A stretch of DNA of 25,147 nucleotides. Source: Candidatus Woesearchaeota archaeon. GTDB taxonomy: Archaea > Nanobdellota > Nanobdellia > Woesearchaeales > GW2011-AR4. How positions within the stretch are numbered: position 1 is the first letter of the stretch; the number at the start of each line of letters is the position of its first letter. A program made the translations under genes and the position numbers. Of this stretch, positions 972 to 18,662 are shown one piece after another. The notes under the pieces were generated by a model. That model worked only from the letters and a program-made list of their open reading frames with translations, searched no databases and was not told the DNA's origin. Location of the stretch: contig DUHN01000017.1 of the NCBI GenBank assembly GCA_013330825.1, positions 511-25,657 on the forward strand, given 5' to 3'.

Positions 972-1361
972 TCAGCCGCAGGGAGTCCCGCTCACGTTGA
1001 TGTCCGGCGACCCGATGCCCATTGAGTCGTTGATGAGGATGATGTTCCCGTCCGCATCCTCAATGTAGATGCAGAAGTCATTCTTGGCGCCGGCCTGGGT
1101 CTTGAGGTCGTTGTAAGGAAGTGACGCGAGCTCTCCAAGGCCGGATTCATTCACATTGTTGTCCTGCACGATGCGGAGAGGGGAGTTCTCCGCTTTCATC
1201 TGGTTGAGCAGGTATGATGATTCTGCCTGGATGCTGCCGGCATTCGATTCCTGCTGGTGGTTGATGAGGGTGAAGATGGAGATGAACGCAGTGAGGAAGA
1301 TGATCACCCCCAGGGTCACGTCGAACGACCAGGATTGCGCCTTGCTCATGCTCATGCTCAT
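972..1361 (-). CDS. Type IV pilin-like / class III signal peptide protein
   Basis: A 129-residue protein with a short polar N terminus containing KAQSWSFD, followed at once by one hydrophobic segment (about residues 14-30, TLGVIIFLTAFISIF). This is the layout of archaeal prepilin-like proteins processed by a class III signal peptidase. The remainder is predicted to face outwards, with two Cys and several N-x-S/T sequons, for example near the C terminus. An upstream ATG at 1403 exists, but a TATA-like site at 1377-1387 lies about 26 nt before the ATG cluster at 1361/1355/1349, so I start the gene there (1355 is equally likely). The promoter falls in the 42-nt gap after the YggS-type gene. Function is inferred from architecture only; it may be a minor pilin or a membrane-anchored surface protein. 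Confidence 0.65.
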   Translation of the reverse strand: MSMSMSKAQSWSFDVTLGVIIFLTAFISIFTLINHQQESNAGSIQAESSYLLNQMKAENSPLRIVQDNNVNESGLGELASLPYNDLKTQAGAKNDFCIYIEDADGNIILINDSMGIGSPDINVSGTPCG

Positions 1362-1376
1362 GCCTGGGCCATAGAC

Positions 1377-1387
1377 CTTAATAAGCA
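1377..1387 (-). promoter_or_regulatory. TATA box of the pilin-like gene
   Basis: The minus strand reads GCTTATTAAGG, centred about 26 nt before the ATG cluster at 1361/1355, so the transcript would start at or next to the start codon. Confidence 0.5.
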
Positions 1388-1403
1388 TTTCGACTATCGG
1401 CAT

Positions 1404-2127: not shown

Positions 2128-4713
2128 TTACCTGCTTGCTACCTGTGGAGGCCGGGTCACGGCGACCATTTGCCTCATCATTCGTTCCATCTTGGTGCCA
2201 TAGCGGTTATAAGCGCCGTTGACTGCATCCGAGACTGTGCTGCCGCACGCTTTGTTTTGTGTGCAGGAGGCCCAATATTCGCTGTTGGGGCCGGTGGTGA
2301 GTTTGCTGTTCCAATTATCCCGGGATATTTTATTGGCAATCCCGTTTGAAAACTGGACTGTTAATCCTGCGGATGCTTGCAGGAGCAGGTCATCTGAGTA
2401 TTTATTCTGGATTGTGGAGATGTAAGGGGTGTGCCGTGCTGCGATGAGGATGGTGCCATATCCTGCGTCATAGCGTGGGTCAGTAGAGCGAAGGTTTTCC
2501 AGGACCCTGCGCTGTTGCGACGTTTGCCCGGAGATTCTTATGTCATTTAGGTCCACACCTTGCTTGAGCGCTTCTGCTCTGAGGGTGGCCAGCATTTCCC
2601 GGCCGCGATTGACGCTGTCAGAAGTGGCGCTGTAGGCTTCTGGGCTTAACCTGCCCTCATCAACGGCCTGTCTCATATCAGCCAGATAGCTGTTCAGTCG
2701 TTGGTTGAGCTGCAGCATTTGAGGGACGTTTGTCTGTCCTATGCCTTGATACTGGCTATATACCCCACGAGAGGCATAATGGGGGTTAGTGGGATTACAG
2801 TTAGACTCAACCGCGCATATGCCTGCCAGGTAAGCGGCATATTGGCTGGAATCGCAGCGGCCGCCGGCGACAGCGCAGAAGCTTTCTGCAATCCAGGGGG
2901 TATTTGCAAGGACGGCATCTGGTGTCAAGCCGGATCCAGCAATAGTTCGTATCGGCCCATCATAGGTATAGGTTACGGGGGAAGGAGTGAAAGAGCCGCC
3001 GTTCAGTACATACTTGTCCGATTTGCCTCCCTCCAGTTCAAATGTGACCACCATGTCGAGATTGGCAGCGTCAGTTTTTACAATGCTTCTTGTGACAGTC
3101 TTGCCGTCGGAAACGAGTTTGGTGTCGCCGATGGAGGCCGTCGCCTCGCCTGCCGTCTTGAGGGAGACCACAATATCCTGCTTCTTGGCATCAGTCACAT
3201 AGTTGAGGTCGATGGTGGCTCCTTTGCTCGGCTCGATGGTTATCTTCGGGTCCGTGATTGTGTCGAGAAGCGCTGCCTTGGTGACAGTGGCCCAGCCTTT
3301 CGCTGACGGGCCTATGTATGCCTTCACCGCCGCCAGGGTGTTTGGGCCGAACTTGCCGTCAGCGCCTCCCTTGGGGCAGTATCCCTTGCCGCAGAGGAAG
3401 TCCTGCACCCATCTGACATCCTCTCCTGTTGAGCCTTCTCTGAGGGGCGTGTTTACGGGATTGTTCGGATTGGACAAGTCTGTTGTGGTGGGGGAATTGA
3501 GCGCGCGGAGGGTTTCCATATTGAGGATGCGTGGGATGGAAGTGCCGTCAGCTTTTGCCCGGGTGGGAATGTCCAGATCGTTCCTCATCTGCGCAAGCGC
3601 CCCCAGCGTCTTCGGCCCAAGAACCCCGTCTATCTTCCCCACCTGGGGATAGCCGGCGGCAGCGAGCATTTTCTGCACCTGCTTCAGCTCTGCCTTGCTC
3701 AGCGAGGCGATGTCCGTGCCGTCCTCGCATGCGGCGCAGTAGAATCTCGGGGCGATGAATTGGAAGCTGTCTCCCTTGATGTCAAACTCATTGTTTGTGG
3801 GGGAGGTCACGGAATTGGGGGTGGTGGGTCTTCCCTTGAAGCTCAGGGTGACATCATCCTTTTTCGCGTTTATGCCCCAGGTGTTGTAATTGAAGAGGAA
3901 CTGCCCGCCTCCGGCAACGATAAGGTCTCCTGTCACCCCCTTGTCGATTTCAGCGCTGCCCTTCAGCCTGATTCCCGGCGCTGAGGAGTCGATGGATGTT
4001 ATGCGAATCTTGTCGTCATTGGCCAGATCAAGGGTATTCCTGGAGGGATCGTACGTGACCCGCGTCCCGTCTTCCTTGAACGTGAGGCTGCCGAAGGAAT
4101 TGGCCGTCACCGTTGCCTTGCCGTCCTCCCTGAAGACAATCCTGCCGTTCTCTATCCTGTGCCCGTTGAGTTCCCCTTTTGAAACGGTCAGCGCACCGTC
4201 TTCTATGGTGACGGTTCCATCCTTCGTTCCTGAGACGACGATATTGGGGGAAGAGCCTTTTCCGGGTTTCACCACGATCGCTTTCTTGCCCACTACCTTT
4301 ATCTCTATTCCCGCGGCGCCGCTCTGCGTGAGTTTGCCCATGTCAATGACGTTCCCCTCCCCGTCGGTGAGCTTCTTGTCGGAGTATCTCCCGATATCCC
4401 CGAAGAAGGAGGTGATGGGGACGCCTGTCGTGGCGGAGAAATATTTCTGGAATGTTTCCTTGTTCGCATTGATGTTGGCCGGGTCGCTGAAAAACTTATT
4501 GGCCAGTTTTACGTCATCGCTCTTTGAGAAAACTGCCTTCGTGTCGAGGTATTCGCGGATGAGCGCCGGGTCATTGTTTATCGTGGCTGCGCTTTGCACC
4601 TCCGCTGCGCTGTCGAAACAGCTCTGGTAATCCGGAGGGCAGGGCGCCTGCACCGGGACTGCCAGGAAGGCGATGCACAGCACCGCAAGTAGAAGGGAGG
4701 TTGGCGTCCTCAT
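2128..4713 (-). CDS. Secreted protein with two peptidoglycan-binding domains and a lytic-transglycosylase-like domain
   Basis: An 861-residue protein with a clear signal peptide (about residues 1-23, cleavage after PVQA). Residues ~25-150 are helical. Residues ~130-325 are beta-rich with repeated short strands (EDGALTV, ENGRIVF, EDGKATV types). Two peptidoglycan_binding_1 domains follow at ~333-385 and ~423-470, each with the V-[QR]-x-[FM]-L, DG-x-[FL]-GP-[KN]-T and aliphatic pattern. Near residues 625-700 lies an SLT/GH23-like segment: ICAVESNCNP with candidate catalytic E636, then GIGQTN at 657-662 matching the family's G-[LI]-x-Q motif. The last ~150 residues are not recognised. The ATG overlaps the stop of the upstream gene by 4 nt and has a GGAGG site, so the two genes are co-transcribed. 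The 3' half looks more AT-rich than the 5' half. The activity could be cleavage or binding of bacterial peptidoglycan; the binding domains are clearer than the hydrolase call. Confidence 0.75.
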   Translation of the reverse strand: MRTPTSLLLAVLCIAFLAVPVQAPCPPDYQSCFDSAAEVQSAATINNDPALIREYLDTKAVFSKSDDVKLANKFFSDPANINANKETFQKYFSATTGVPITSFFGDIGRYSDKKLTDGEGNVIDMGKLTQSGAAGIEIKVVGKKAIVVKPGKGSSPNIVVSGTKDGTVTIEDGALTVSKGELNGHRIENGRIVFREDGKATVTANSFGSLTFKEDGTRVTYDPSRNTLDLANDDKIRITSIDSSAPGIRLKGSAEIDKGVTGDLIVAGGGQFLFNYNTWGINAKKDDVTLSFKGRPTTPNSVTSPTNNEFDIKGDSFQFIAPRFYCAACEDGTDIASLSKAELKQVQKMLAAAGYPQVGKIDGVLGPKTLGALAQMRNDLDIPTRAKADGTSIPRILNMETLRALNSPTTTDLSNPNNPVNTPLREGSTGEDVRWVQDFLCGKGYCPKGGADGKFGPNTLAAVKAYIGPSAKGWATVTKAALLDTITDPKITIEPSKGATIDLNYVTDAKKQDIVVSLKTAGEATASIGDTKLVSDGKTVTRSIVKTDAANLDMVVTFELEGGKSDKYVLNGGSFTPSPVTYTYDGPIRTIAGSGLTPDAVLANTPWIAESFCAVAGGRCDSSQYAAYLAGICAVESNCNPTNPHYASRGVYSQYQGIGQTNVPQMLQLNQRLNSYLADMRQAVDEGRLSPEAYSATSDSVNRGREMLATLRAEALKQGVDLNDIRISGQTSQQRRVLENLRSTDPRYDAGYGTILIAARHTPYISTIQNKYSDDLLLQASAGLTVQFSNGIANKISRDNWNSKLTTGPNSEYWASCTQNKACGSTVSDAVNGAYNRYGTKMERMMRQMVAVTRPPQVASR

Positions 4714-5534
4714 TGCTGTCCCTCCTCCGGCCAGGCGATGAAATGGGCGAACCTGAAGGCATTGCGGGGCAGGACGGTCCGGACGTCGTCTGAAAGCGAT
4801 GCGTCTTCGGCCGCGGCGAGAGGGTCCTCAAGCGAATACAGGAGGATTTTCCCGGTTGGGGTGTCTGTCTCTTCCATCTGGATGGAGATTCCTTTCTGTT
4901 CGGATATGTCGAGGATGCAGCTCAGGCACAAGACAGCGCCATCCTGCTGCTGCCTGGAGGCCATGTCGCGGGCAATACCGAGGAGCTGCCCCAGTGAAGA
5001 GGGGGCGGAGATGAGAATATCCCCCATCAGGGTACTGGATTCCTGGGAGCGCACGGTAATGCCCGGGGAAGCCCGCAATTCCACCACTCCGTCCGCAATC
5101 GAGACCGTCGCCTTGGGAGCAGAGGTGGAATAGTCGATCCGATAGGGATAGCCTGAAAGGTCCTGGCAGGCCGAGATGGCGTCAAGCGCTCCCTGCTCCA
5201 GCTCACGCTCGATGTCCGGGCTCTGCGGCACGAACAATTCCCTCTTGTACAGGTAATACGCAGTGTCGGTATCCTCTTCAGGGCCCTGCGCCATGCTGTT
5301 GGTGAAAACGCCGTAATGGCCTCCTTGGAACATCACTTCCGAGATGGCATCGCTGAAGCCGCTCTGCACGCACTGCTGGACATATGCCTTCACAGGGTCT
5401 GGCTCGGACTGGTGGAAAAAAGACGAGGGGATGGTGAGCGAGCCGGAGCTGTACAGGAGGACCGCAGTGATGGACAGGAGCGCCACAAGGATGAGGAAAA
5501 GGGTGATCTGGCCACTTTTTTGATGGGACATCAT
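4710..5534 (-). CDS. Membrane-anchored pilin-like protein paralogous to the divergent gene at 5621
   Basis: A 274-residue protein. The N terminus KSGQITLFLILVALLSI resembles an archaeal class III signal peptide: a charged/Gly/Gln segment followed at once by a hydrophobic stretch (about residues 9-29). The rest is predicted extracytoplasmic. It shares a pattern with the protein divergently encoded at 5621: V-x-x-[YF]-[VI]-[QE]-[QS]-C about 50 residues in, then QGG-[HY]-Y, a YY-[LW]-Y-[KN]-R segment, an acidic helix with a later Cys (ISACQDL versus NHTCLND), and a C-terminal beta-rich half. It contains an additional CLSC pair (near VLCLSCILD). It precedes and overlaps by 4 nt the secreted PG-binding protein, suggesting that the two act together, perhaps as anchor and effector. 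ATG 5534 or ATG 5531 could be the start. No enzymatic motif is recognised. Confidence 0.75.
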   Translation of the reverse strand: MMSHQKSGQITLFLILVALLSITAVLLYSSGSLTIPSSFFHQSEPDPVKAYVQQCVQSGFSDAISEVMFQGGHYGVFTNSMAQGPEEDTDTAYYLYKRELFVPQSPDIERELEQGALDAISACQDLSGYPYRIDYSTSAPKATVSIADGVVELRASPGITVRSQESSTLMGDILISAPSSLGQLLGIARDMASRQQQDGAVLCLSCILDISEQKGISIQMEETDTPTGKILLYSLEDPLAAAEDASLSDDVRTVLPRNAFRFAHFIAWPEEGQQ

Positions 5535-5620: not shown

Positions 5621-6397
5621 ATGCAAAAGAGGGTCCAGATAAAAGTCTTCCTGGCCATAGGCTTCGTCATGGTCGCCGCGCTTTTCCTGCTGTCGTACGG
5701 AGAGGATGCCCTGGACAGTGTCCGCCCGTCCTCCCAGAATCCCTCTGTCATCGAGAGCTTCATCGAGTCCTGCATCTCCCAGGTGGGCGAATGGGCGGTG
5801 TACGACACCTCATTGCAGGGCGGCTACTACATCCCTCCTGAGCCGGCCTTCCCGTATTTCTATGCTGATATCCCTTACTATTGGTACAACCGGACAGCCA
5901 GCATGCCTTCCCAGGAGCAGGCGGAGCGGCAGCTCGCCCTTTACCTTTTCGACAACATCAACCACACCTGCCTCAACGATTTCAGTGATTTCAGGAAACT
6001 CGGCTACAAGGTCTACGGCACCGGGCTCAGCGATCCTGGCGAGGTTTCCGCTGCCATGCGTGATGATGATGTCCTCTTCACGCTGAGGCATCCCATCAGC
6101 TTCGAGAAGGGGAATTCAAAGACGACGCTGGACTCGTTCCAGGCGTCCATCCCCTTAGGCATGAAGAGGGCATATGATGTCTCCGGCAAAATCATGGAGG
6201 AGCAGGTGAAGCATCCGAACGAGATGCCCCTGAGCGCGCTGGCTGCCCTCGCCGCAGCGAATAATTTCACTTTTGAGATCACCTACTTCGGCGAGGATGA
6301 CGTGCTGTACAGCATGATTCTTGATGTCCCGCAGAAGGAGCCGCTGGTGTACGGATTCATGGGCAGGTATGACTGGAGTGAGCTGCGGTATGGGTAA
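5621..6397 (+). CDS. Membrane-anchored surface protein paralogous to the divergent gene at 5534
   Basis: A 258-residue protein with one N-terminal membrane segment (about residues 9-27, VFLAIGFVMVAALFLLS) after a positive MQKRVQIK start, then an extracytoplasmic region. The landmarks match the divergent 274-residue protein: FIESCISQ, LQGGYYIP, PYYWYNR, a helix leading to NHTCLND, and a beta-rich C-terminal half. N-x-S/T sequons (NRT, NHT, NFT) fit a surface location and possible N-glycosylation. Proteins with a Cys followed by an L-QGGY motif seem familiar to me from DPANN genomes, but I cannot verify that here. The ATG is placed by the TATA box at 5589. It overlaps the next gene by 8 nt, so the pair is an operon. 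Biochemical function unknown. Confidence 0.78.
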   Translation: MQKRVQIKVFLAIGFVMVAALFLLSYGEDALDSVRPSSQNPSVIESFIESCISQVGEWAVYDTSLQGGYYIPPEPAFPYFYADIPYYWYNRTASMPSQEQAERQLALYLFDNINHTCLNDFSDFRKLGYKVYGTGLSDPGEVSAAMRDDDVLFTLRHPISFEKGNSKTTLDSFQASIPLGMKRAYDVSGKIMEEQVKHPNEMPLSALAALAAANNFTFEITYFGEDDVLYSMILDVPQKEPLVYGFMGRYDWSELRYG

Positions 6398-8462
6398 GAG
6401 AAACGTGGCTGCAGGATTTGTGCTTGTGCTGTCGGTTCTTTCCATAAGCATGGCTTTTGCCGCAACTGAAGAGATTGGTTTTGACAACCCGGCAACAAAC
6501 CCTTCCTTTTGGGGCAGGGATGATGCGGTGTACCTTTTCGAACAGATGCTTAAGGATTCAGAGAAGGCCAAGCAGGCCAGCACCGCTGACTTGAGGAAGT
6601 GGTGTGAGAAGAAAGAAGGATGCCGGCTCAAGTTTGCAGAAGAGGCTGGAGTCTCTGGATATGCGTTCGGCAAGATAACCACGAGGGGGCCTTCTCCGAT
6701 AACGGTCGATGTGGACAGCGGGTTCAGCCCCGGTGAGGTGATGATATTTGCGGACGGGAAAGTCGGCTTCCCTGATGGCGTCAAGGTCTCCGGAAAGTCC
6801 AGCATAAGCGGGAATATCGGGCAGAATATAGTCTACATCAAGGGAGGGGCTGTCGAGGTGCCTCCCGGCGGGGGAGATGGTGCACGGACATACAAGCTCC
6901 TGGATGGCGCATCGGTGCCGGTGCCTGGCGACGGCAAGATGAGCCTGACCACGGCGAAGAATGGCATCCCCCTTGAGATAAGGACGGAAGAGGGGAAGAG
7001 GGTTCTCTGGGGACCAAGCGTTGTTGAGAAGGATGGGAAAAAGCAGGGAGAGATATCCGGCACGGTGGTCCTCGCGGAGGACGGCGTGCTTCTGAAGAAG
7101 GCTTCCTACAGCAAGTATATGAAGGGAACAACAGGTACTCTAAAAGTGGTGTCATCCTCCCCGTTCACAGGCTTTCTCTTCGCTTATCGCGCATCATCCG
7201 AGGATGCATATCTCACCTTCTCCAGCTGCGAAGGCCACGAAAGCTGCTTCTTGATCGGGGAGAGTAGTATAATCGCAACAGGTGTCCCGAAAAAATCAGT
7301 CGAGTTGTATGACCGGTCCATAGGGGCAGTGGTGATTGCCGTCCCAGACGCGCAAAAAACGGATCCTCCGCCGTCCAGTGGAGAGATGTCCATGGCAGAC
7401 AAGGCCATGAAAAACCTGAAGGAGAATGCCCAGGGGGTGCTGGACACCGTCGTTGCGGCGGGGAATGCTGTCATTGAGGCGGGAAAAAAGGGGGTAGGGG
7501 AGATTGATATTTCATCCTCTGAAGCGGTGATTTCTGTGTTCAAGGATGTCGGCAAGAGCATAGGGGAACAGGCCAAAGGGGCGCTGGATGCGACCGTTGC
7601 GGCGGGGAATGCTGTCATTGAGGCGGGAAATGTTGTGTTGGCAAAGGGAAATATACTCACCGCTCCTAAGGTTGAGACGGACATTTCGGCGATCCCTCCG
7701 AAGAGCGCTACAGACGCCCTTGTTGATTCATTTGATAAGCGCTGGCACTTCAAGATGGAGCCATTGGTCGCAGGAAATCCCGACCAGCCGGATGCATCTG
7801 GGCCGTTGCGCATAACAGTCACTCCGAGAGAGCCGGAGTACCGGGCTGCCGGAGTGCCGAAAGATGCCAAAAGCAGCGACCCAAGCAGCGAAGTGGGCAG
7901 GTTTTTCCTCGATCGTGATGCCATGAAGGGCCCTCAGCAGAAGTTTGGCGATGTTCCGGATGGCCTGGCAACGAACCCTGACGCGTTTACCGGGCAGCAA
8001 GCGGGTCTGGAGGGGTCGGTATGGCCGGTGGCTGGTGCTGCTCGCCAGGAAATCGTCGATAGGGTGGCACGAGTGGCCAACGCATACATCGGAAGCGAGG
8101 TGGTTGTGGGGGATGTGGTGGTACAATCAGTGAAGACGGGAAACACGTTCCGGCTGGTTGAGGAAAGCGGTGTCAGGAGATGGGAACAGGTCGAGCCGGT
8201 GACGGTGAATGGCGTCAGGAGATGGATGAAGGTGGACAGCCCAAGATACTCCATAGACAATCACGCTGCCCTCCTGAATAAGGTGGGTGGCTATTCGAAT
8301 GACGGGAACAACAATTGCGGCGCGCGGTTCTGCATCATCGATGGCAGGCCGAAGTCCGGTGACCGGCTCGGCTCAATCTCGGGGGCAGGGGTGGCTGCAG
8401 GCAGCACAGCAAGCAGCAAGACAAGACAGGCTGTCATCGGGGCGGCATCGAGAATGCGATAG
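6390..8462 (+). CDS. Large secreted beta-rich protein with internal repeats, unknown function
   Basis: A 690-residue protein starting at ATG 6390, which gives a clean signal peptide (MGKRNVAAGFVLVLSVLSISMAFA); the frame is open further upstream but that region lies inside the previous gene. A GGAGTGAG site sits just before the ATG, and the start overlaps the previous gene by 8 nt. After the signal peptide come a helical segment (~30-85), a beta-rich region (~95-310) resembling in style the same region of the minus-strand PG-binding protein, and two copies of an Ala/Gly-rich helical unit (TVAAGNAVIEAG, ~residues 354-366 and 402-414, 48 residues apart). The C-terminal region (~560-690) contains a Cys pair (NNNCGARFC). 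No PG-binding or catalytic motif was seen. By position it is the counterpart of the gene at 2128-4713. Confidence 0.75.
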   Translation: MGKRNVAAGFVLVLSVLSISMAFAATEEIGFDNPATNPSFWGRDDAVYLFEQMLKDSEKAKQASTADLRKWCEKKEGCRLKFAEEAGVSGYAFGKITTRGPSPITVDVDSGFSPGEVMIFADGKVGFPDGVKVSGKSSISGNIGQNIVYIKGGAVEVPPGGGDGARTYKLLDGASVPVPGDGKMSLTTAKNGIPLEIRTEEGKRVLWGPSVVEKDGKKQGEISGTVVLAEDGVLLKKASYSKYMKGTTGTLKVVSSSPFTGFLFAYRASSEDAYLTFSSCEGHESCFLIGESSIIATGVPKKSVELYDRSIGAVVIAVPDAQKTDPPPSSGEMSMADKAMKNLKENAQGVLDTVVAAGNAVIEAGKKGVGEIDISSSEAVISVFKDVGKSIGEQAKGALDATVAAGNAVIEAGNVVLAKGNILTAPKVETDISAIPPKSATDALVDSFDKRWHFKMEPLVAGNPDQPDASGPLRITVTPREPEYRAAGVPKDAKSSDPSSEVGRFFLDRDAMKGPQQKFGDVPDGLATNPDAFTGQQAGLEGSVWPVAGAARQEIVDRVARVANAYIGSEVVVGDVVVQSVKTGNTFRLVEESGVRRWEQVEPVTVNGVRRWMKVDSPRYSIDNHAALLNKVGGYSNDGNNNCGARFCIIDGRPKSGDRLGSISGAGVAAGSTASSKTRQAVIGAASRMR
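7451..7630 (+). repeat. Exact 36-bp intragenic direct repeat
   Basis: Positions 7451-7486 and 7595-7630 are identical over 36 bases at an offset of 144 nt (48 codons), so the reading frame is kept. The encoded unit is VAAGNAVIEAG. Identity at silent positions points to a recent duplication or ongoing gene conversion. Confidence 0.85.
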
Positions 8463-17684: not shown

Positions 17685-18662
17685 ATGCGGCTCTCCATCT
17701 TCCTTTGCGCGCTCGCGGCGCTTCTCGCCGGCTGCGCAGGGTACGCGGTGAAGGATGTCCCTGAAGTTCTGCGCGAGCAGGGCCCTGACCCCGGCGTCTT
17801 CTTCTGCAAGCAGGACAACTGCAGCTGGCATCTTGAAGAACTGATCCTGTCTGCGCAGTCCTCAATCCATTGCGCCTTCTATGACCTTGACCTGCAGAAC
17901 ATCATCGCGGCATTGGGGGAGCAGAGCAGGCATGCTGAAGTAAGGGTGGTGCTGGATGACGAGCCCTATGAGGGAATGGTCTCAGGGGATGGCGTCCTGG
18001 TGGAAGACCGTTCTTCGCGCATGCACAACAAGTTCTGCGTCGTGGATGGCATGTACGTGTGGACGGGCTCATTCAATCCGACAACGGCTGACAACGACGT
18101 CAACGACAACAACGCCGTGCTGATGAGCTCCTATTACCTGGCGAAGAATTATGAGCAGGAATTCGGTGAGTTGTGGATGGGAGAGTTCAGCGCGGGAAGC
18201 CGTGTCCCTTACCCTTCATTTGTCCACAACGGGATGCTGGTCGAGAATGCCTTCTGCCCCGAGGACAGGTGCGAGGAAAAGGTCGCCTCGCTGCTCGGCA
18301 ATGCGTCGGTGTCCGTGTATGTCATGGTGTTCAGCTTCACATCGGAGAAGATCGCCGACGCGATGCTCTTCAGGAGGGATGCGGAGATGCGGGGCGTCTT
18401 CGATTCGTCCCAGGCAGGCAGCAGCTATTCCCAGTACAAGCGCCTTCTCGGGTTTGGCTTGCCGGTCAGGAAGGACAGGGGGAAGGGCAAGCTCCATCAC
18501 AAGGTGTTCATCATCGACAACGAGACCGTCATCACGGGAAGCTACAATCCCACGGCCTCCGGCTCTGGGGAGAATGACGAGAACGTCCTTATCCTGCACA
18601 ATCAGGGAATTGCCCGCCGGTATGCCGGGGAGTTCTTCCGCCTGTGGGAGGCGGCATCATGA
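17685..18662 (+). CDS. PLD-superfamily nuclease/phospholipase, predicted lipoprotein
   Basis: A 325-residue protein with a signal peptide ending in a lipobox-like LLAGC (lipidated or disulfide-forming C17). It has two HKD motifs: H114-x-K116-x4-D121 followed by WTGSFNPT, and H271-H-K273-x4-D278 followed by ITGSYNPT. Both halves are intact, so the enzyme should be active as a phosphodiesterase through a covalent His intermediate. The small size and the GS-[FY]-NPT sequences resemble Nuc/endonuclease-like PLDs more than large phospholipases. It acts outside the membrane, next to the secreted Lon-like protease, whose stop is 3 nt upstream. The pair could degrade extracellular nucleic acid and protein, for example for scavenging; this is inference. 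Confidence 0.88.
   Translation: MRLSIFLCALAALLAGCAGYAVKDVPEVLREQGPDPGVFFCKQDNCSWHLEELILSAQSSIHCAFYDLDLQNIIAALGEQSRHAEVRVVLDDEPYEGMVSGDGVLVEDRSSRMHNKFCVVDGMYVWTGSFNPTTADNDVNDNNAVLMSSYYLAKNYEQEFGELWMGEFSAGSRVPYPSFVHNGMLVENAFCPEDRCEEKVASLLGNASVSVYVMVFSFTSEKIADAMLFRRDAEMRGVFDSSQAGSSYSQYKRLLGFGLPVRKDRGKGKLHHKVFIIDNETVITGSYNPTASGSGENDENVLILHNQGIARRYAGEFFRLWEAAS

Follow-up and report, generated by a model that had tools for sequence, protein, structure and literature searches.

Why should an archaeon encode an apparently secreted protein with two domains for binding bacterial murein? The question is raised by a stretch of 25,147 nucleotides (hereafter the window) from a Candidatus Woesearchaeota archaeon (assembly GCA_013330825.1, contig DUHN01000017.1, positions 511 to 25,657 of the forward strand), in which the gene of an 861-residue protein (W861) directly follows that of a 274-residue pilin-like membrane protein (W274). 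Our reading, to which we give a probability of roughly 0.6, is that the two form a tool, secreted or displayed at the surface, that targets bacterial murein, with W274 as an anchor and W861 as an exchangeable muralytic tip, and that they are one two-gene unit of a multi-copy family. The parts of the pair are as follows.

2128..4713, minus strand: W861, an 861-residue protein, predicted to be secreted (signal peptide, N-terminal region, two PG_binding_1 domains, SLT/GH23-like C-terminal domain), from the open reading frame (ORF), Pfam, alignments and relatives
4645..4713, minus strand: residues 1-23, which by eye resemble a Sec-type signal peptide
3724..4644, minus strand: N-terminal region, residues 24-330, with counterparts at the N-terminus of two proteins encoded by genome G270 (phmmer/hmmsearch, blastp)
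3580..3693, minus strand: first PG_binding_1 copy, residues about 341-378 (25.9 bits, cut-off 23)
3316..3429, minus strand: second PG_binding_1 copy, residues about 429-466 (27.2 bits, cut-off 23)
2314..2931, minus strand: SLT/GH23-like domain, residues about 595-800, with a helical insertion at about 663-740 (alignments; without a Pfam match)
2806..2808, minus strand: E636, the candidate catalytic glutamate, in an E-S motif (column is E in 31 of 31 aligned SLT domains)
2734..2736, minus strand: Q660 of GIGQ, matching the GLMQ glutamine (column is Q in 29 of 31)
2476..2481, minus strand: D745-P746, matching the SLT DP motif (first column is D in 21 of 31)
4710..5534, minus strand: W274, a 274-residue pilin-like membrane anchor whose stop codon overlaps the start of W861 (ATGA)

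The binding half of W861 is the clearest part. A preliminary description of this locus, made from the letters of the window, had proposed a minus-strand ORF of 861 residues with a signal peptide and two peptidoglycan-binding domains, and the sequence agrees: the ORF starts with ATG, the N-terminus MRTPTSLLLAVLCIAFLAVPVQA reads by eye as Sec-type, and PG_binding_1 (PF01471) matches with 45.4 bits against a cut-off of 23 in two stretches, whose positions were taken from the genome-wide scan. Among the PHROGs, five families named as endolysins match W861 via this same part, and one weak CII-like match falls at residues 665-715 (E 0.006). On these domains, murein binding by W861 seems well supported.

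The membrane partner starts like a pilin (HQKSGQITLFLIL) and carries KSGQITLF, i.e., a basic residue followed by Q-[ILV]-[TS]-x-F where a hydrophobic helix begins, which we take to be a class III type pilin signal. This motif is found in its loose form in 55 of 63 anchors and in its strict form in 32 of 63. A prepilin peptidase (PF01478), which would presumably process the anchors, is present in the genome of W861 (59.6 bits) and, counting this genome, in 38 of 39 that were searched. The arrangement is repeated next to W274 by a second pair in divergent orientation.

5621..6397, plus strand: 258-residue anchor, a paralogue of W274 (blastp 4.5e-7, set of ten proteins)
6390..8462, plus strand: 690-residue partner of the second anchor, predicted to be secreted, with no Pfam domain

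Blastp finds no likeness between the 690-residue partner and W861 at E<=1.

Such pairs recur. A profile built from three anchors of the own genome finds matches in 91 of 99 genomes (own included), and in the own genome 11 matches on 10 frames. Among 72 anchor ORFs, drawn non-randomly from loci mostly of the strongest matches, 64 are followed by a same-strand ORF of at least 150 residues that starts between -150 and +300 bases from the anchor stop. For the 59 pairs with anchors of up to 460 residues, the genes overlap by exactly 4 bases in 25 and lie within 30 bases in 46, and a hydrophobic segment stands at the start of 57 of the 59 partners vs. 278 of 819 other ORFs. Pfam domains were counted for 53 of the 64 partners (5 with anchors of more than 450 residues and 6 cut by a contig end were set aside; two of the contig-end partners, L156 and L208, scanned singly, gave no Pfam match). 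Ten of the 53, from the own and related genomes, carry a wall-related domain over cut-off (SLT in 4, PG_binding_1 in 2, LysM in 3, M23 in 1), one further partner carries Peptidase_C25 over cut-off, and two outside the ten stay below it (L234 with PG_binding_1 at 18.2 bits, L161 with SLT at 19.4 bits). The own genome holds six pairs with short anchors, and four of the partners are over cut-off, with PG_binding_1 (2), LysM (1) and M23 (1).

Window: W861, PG_binding_1
Contig C9: 1708 residues, PG_binding_1
Contig C49: 985 residues, LysM, 21.4 bits against a cut-off of 20.9
Contig C50: 625 residues, M23, 113 bits
Contig C20: 670 residues, HEFGH motif, no Pfam match
Window: the 690-residue gene, no Pfam domain

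A seventh short anchor (C55, L220) has no qualifying partner. Both PG_binding_1 proteins of the genome are anchor partners. The association from anchor to wall domain is one-sided. We rejected a general rule by which SLT domains across the phylum would stand after this anchor, as none of the 21 best same-order SLT matches does so (L175 and L183 being without contig room), and PG_binding_1 genes of other genomes stand directly after an anchor in 4 of 20 cases (two in G270; one case untestable), this upstream check having covered 20 of the 27 proteins counted in other genomes. The two-component surface system proposed in the preliminary description gains support from the recurrence of the gene pair; a physical association of the two products is something we infer from that pairing.

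Which partner ends are exchanged is best seen in the relatives of W861. Starting from residues 23-330, an iterated search reached two genes of G270, which belongs to the same order: one already in the initial phmmer round (E <1e-3), the other in the round after it. Their values in the last hmmsearch round, 1.2e-33 and 6.2e-30 (set of 883 ORFs), are inflated because both genes were already inside the profile; in single blastp comparisons W861 matches the two proteins, L243 and L251, weakly (3.4e-4 and 0.003, set of six proteins), the profile likeness being clearer. Each of the two genes is preceded by an anchor gene with a 4-base overlap. L243 carries PG_binding_1 (40.2 bits) and Peptidase_M23 (84.9 bits), both over cut-off, and L251 carries PG_binding_1 (34.0 bits) and a Glucosaminidase match of 26.8 bits (E 8.8e-6) that is below its cut-off of 30.2. 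The two share 30% identity over 465 columns (E 1e-41) and diverge beyond, and the SLT-like domain of W861 occupies the same position as the M23 domain of L243 and the Glucosaminidase-like end of L251. Three related proteins thus have three different muralytic-type ends, which is the strongest ground for taking the end of W861 to be a wall enzyme. The layout of polymorphic toxins, a common N-terminal part with differing C-terminal effectors, is seen in L243 and L251, with the N-terminus of W861 more distant. A single N-terminal domain common to all partners is not supported, as iteration from W861 gained only the two G270 genes.

When the alignment of these three proteins was searched against 352 genomes of the order, two of them (the own genome and G270) gave full-length matches and 12 others matched in short pieces, and among 34 proteins that it found in the protein database none besides W861 aligned over more than 17% of its length. 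A homology search with W861 returned, besides itself, four proteins that match 14-15% of its length, three being close in size class to the PG-binding part. No homologues were found in 58 other genomes, and residues 575-861 matched nothing in 326 other genomes or among 3243 candidates. Viral contigs held no close relative (16 pattern matches, 0 confirmed), and no sign of a viral origin was seen.

If the tips cut bacterial walls, they may do so for food: the enzyme could be shed and could digest dead bacterial wall for nutrients instead of attacking or holding living cells. The available parts of two papers describe DPANN archaea as fermenters and users of salvaged cell material (PMC10936187, PMC9723730), and other anchor partners are peptidase-like (the HEFGH motif, Peptidase_C25), which fits such a role. 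Against it, the pairing with a pilin-like membrane protein and the swapped hydrolase tips look contact-dependent, neither point being decisive. We consider scavenging unlikely, if the best surviving of the alternatives.

A second line of evidence for an enzyme at the end of W861 is its likeness to SLT domains. The preliminary description had named E636 and a GIGQ motif in an SLT-like region at residues 610-720; both E636 and G657-I-G-Q660 are present, and the region is seen by alignment, with other bounds (about 595-800), because a helical stretch of ~80 residues (about 663-740) parts GIGQ from the DP motif. In MAFFT alignments with 31 SLT domains (25 of the 30 used for our archaeal SLT hidden Markov model, or HMM, plus six anchor partners; L035, L054, L056, L058 and L059 were omitted, as in the structure alignments), E636, S637, G657, Q660, D745 and P746 land on hallmark columns, and E636, Q660 and D745 are aligned to the SLT motifs in 4 of 4 MAFFT modes. 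The ES+G+Q pattern, a criterion fixed after W861 was seen, occurs in 0 of 150 decoy ORF ends and 0 of 150 shuffles; 3 of the ORF ends and 1 of the shuffles (150 each) show a looser pattern of E, Q and D. With hhalign, the end of W861 matches the SLT profile at E 0.0018 over 18 columns, a value that none of 300 ORF ends and none of 200 shuffles reached. The SLT partner L207, which also sits in this profile and supplies its ICAVES segment, matches W861 by blastp at E 0.002 over 17 residues, in a pair chosen by eye. A four-motif SLT score failed as evidence, as it was reached by 98 of 1052 null ORFs and 139 of 300 shuffles; its two-motif part was reached by 29 of 1052 and 30 of 300, and the lower rates with narrowed blocks (3 of 1052 null ORFs, 32 of 2000 shuffles) are tuned because the blocks were narrowed afterwards.

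Several results weigh against an SLT enzyme. The family search suggested in the preliminary description turned out negative for the SLT-like part: W861 has no Pfam match to SLT (PF01464), whose cut-off is not reached, and its C-terminal part has none to any family at E<=0.1, with only unrelated, insignificant families up to E 10. The archaeal SLT HMM scores -0.6 bits, its N-terminal half 0.3 bits (rank 85 in the null set), and its C-terminal half gives no match. The likeness is thus seen by alignment, and every family model used stayed below cut-off and without a significant score. The third SLT/GH23 motif, A-Y-N, is missing in that the tyrosine column holds L in W861. Structure models spoke neither for nor against a lysozyme-like fold: Foldseek matched an SLT-guided model to nothing at E<=0.001, either in the PDB or in a viral library, with other lysozyme families remaining compatible, and a single-sequence model was unusable.

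An alternative reading is that W861 only binds, with PG_binding_1 attaching the archaeon to bacterial walls and the C-terminal domain being degenerate or an unrelated, non-catalytic helical domain. The silence of every family library used on the C-terminus, the large helical insertion and the absent AYN tyrosine would fit this, as would several anchor partners in which Pfam shows just a binding domain (L065, L150, two on L221, L254 and L256). On the other side stand the six residues on hallmark columns, the ES+G+Q pattern in none of the 300 decoys, and the M23 and Glucosaminidase-like domains that fill the same slot in L243 and L251. A pure binder seems to us improbable, slightly more so than scavenging. 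The claim of a muralytic C-terminus is hence retained on the alignment statistics and the ends of the two relatives, with the family models silent; E636 would be the acid of what is probably a divergent GH23 enzyme, a lytic transglycosylase.

Under the anchor-and-tip reading, the locus would belong to a multi-copy family of the Woesearchaeal order: a pilin-like membrane protein and, encoded next to it by a downstream gene that usually overlaps or touches, a large secreted partner whose C-terminal domain is exchangeable. W861 would be exported via Sec, its two PG_binding_1 domains would grip bacterial murein and its C-terminal domain would cut the glycan strand. The pilin-like partner may hold W861 at the archaeal surface or release it from there; in either case W861 would breach or graze the walls of neighboring bacteria.

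This requires a foreign target. Named genomes yielded 54 topoisomerase I loci, with the label Woesearchaeota, Nanoarchaeota or Nanoarchaeia on 52, Micrarchaeota on 1 and just "archaeon" on 1, which agrees with the archaeal host given in the preliminary description; our term Woesearchaeal order is based on these named relatives. The own genome (83 contigs, 1.16 Mb, 0.14% contaminated, with the window on contig C81) yielded no penicillin-binding protein (PBP) transpeptidase (PF00905), with the caveat that it is 87.1% complete, and the family was found in 1 of 59 genomes, own included. A Mur ligase-like protein is present in the own genome and in 32 of the 59 in all, which is no proof of murein synthesis because the Methanocaldococcus and Haloferax controls match too. 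The archaeon thus appears unable to build murein, and foreign murein as the target, as earlier claimed, is supported since no PF00905 transpeptidase was found. The sole PF00905 match of the 59 genomes (G044:C1:1062871-1063686, 111.9 bits) lies in a single-contig genome of the same order. A related genome (G040:C7 and G040:C2) has three Mur ligase domains, of which two match strongly, with 176 and 156 bits; these are either murein-type synthesis genes or contamination.

Bacterial VirB1-type enzymes open the way for a pilus, and a similar role for W861, or the remodeling of an archaeal surface polymer, is brought to mind by the pilin-like anchors on both sides of W861 and by a second SLT protein of the own genome that ends a run of small pilin-like genes (L063, 4163-7586), yet we regard this as very improbable, as no PBP transpeptidase was found and own murein is hence not expected, and the M23 and Glucosaminidase-like relatives point to murein.

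Some further observations concern the neighboring and related loci. The second gene downstream of W861 (window 972-1403, minus strand) encodes a small pilin-like protein (KAQSWSFDVTLGVIIFL), and the protein encoded at 17685-18662 on the plus strand, possibly a surface nuclease or phospholipase, has two PLD-like stretches (117.5 bits) and begins with LLAGC, which resembles a lipobox. The last gene of the L063 run (G000:C1), otherwise of small pilin-like membrane proteins, encodes a 438-residue SLT protein (40.1 bits), and a similar run is seen by eye ahead of seven SLT genes (L170, L171, L174, L176, L182, L184 and L189); the impression is of a conserved surface machine that brings along a wall enzyme. 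In 4 of 20 SLT loci (L173, L177, L178, L186) the SLT gene is preceded, at a distance of up to about 2.3 kb, by a gene that we presume to be GatE-like. The gene clusters at L180 and L188, two of the 21 SLT loci above, open with an anchor-like ORF of greater length (about 710-750 residues, found with a broader anchor model), and at least one large ORF separates it from the SLT gene. Two anchor partners from two genomes (L064, 12948-14960, and L227, 1451-3334) share 26% identity over 683 columns, and the own-genome member of this pair has a HEFGH metallopeptidase-like motif and no Pfam match.

The general idea of archaeal murein hydrolases acting on bacteria is already in print (PMC8204110, PMC9723730, PMC12352652), and the comparisons that follow draw on the available parts of these and the other papers cited. 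Large extracellular proteins with murein-like transglycosylase domains have been described in Pacearchaeota and Woesearchaeota, with bacterial hosts suggested (PMC8204110), and the idea was repeated for three bins (PMC10936187). Their family fam00969 resembles W861 in lineage, predicted extracellular location, lytic transglycosylase domain (a putative one in W861) and proposed attachment to or degradation of bacterial walls; compared by description, it reaches 3,000 residues and has a recognized domain, whereas W861 has 861 residues, an SLT-like part that is missed, PG_binding_1 and an anchor. Frames of about 2,000-2,700 residues with an SLT match occur in several families of same-class genomes (e.g., G264, G198, G256, G181) and are perhaps these large proteins (PMC8204110). 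GH23-based predation proposed for "vampiristic" Woesearchaeota (PMC9723730) shares the murein degradation and concerns CAZy genes in bins, with no domain swap or anchor gene in the part of the paper available.

Closer in architecture are the modular archaeal hydrolases Woldo and Danwoldo, prominent in Nanoarchaeota, with PG_binding_1 domains and replaced catalytic domains (PMC12352652). They are secreted, as W861 is predicted to be (a known secretion signal being reported in only 32% of homologues), and combine two PG_binding_1 domains with one murein hydrolase domain, of which W861 has a putative counterpart recognized by alignment only; L243 has both kinds of domain over cut-off, and the M23/glucosaminidase swap of their relatives recurs in L243 and L251. 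Genes like L243 may already be in the tables of that paper, since M23-type homologues were counted in four Nanoarchaeia genomes. In the haloarchaeal proteins, however, M23 precedes the binding domains, whereas here the hydrolase follows them; the available text mentions no pilin-like partner gene; and a filter for catalytic domains built on Pfam would pass W861 by. Archaea have also been described as carrying polymorphic toxins and pilin islands, with diverse pilins in DPANN (PMC6393860). Such toxins share a constant delivery part and an exchangeable C-terminal effector, but W861 would act outside, on the wall, and no known trafficking domain was found in it. The DPANN secreted protein family cls.004306, encoded beside secretion and S-layer-like genes (PMC6393860), could be related to the anchors.

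Murein-degrading Woesearchaeota are therefore not new, and what is added here is the pairing of anchor and tip, of which we found no description in a literature search that lay outside preprints and most subscription papers. We put forward tentatively, at somewhat less than even odds, the wider proposal that this is a widespread, multi-copy anti-bacterial contact system of the order, in which the anchor is joined by an overlapping gene to a tip that swaps lytic transglycosylase, M23, glucosaminidase, LysM and peptidase domains; W861 would then be a tip with a transglycosylase missed by domain searches, and the many partners without domains would be further tips. The anchor gene would in this way offer a handle for wall-active enzymes that domain searches miss. 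For most DPANN archaea neither hosts nor prey are known, to our knowledge, and a recurring pair whose variable end often matches domains that bind or cut murein makes a bacterial partner for Woesearchaeota directly testable.
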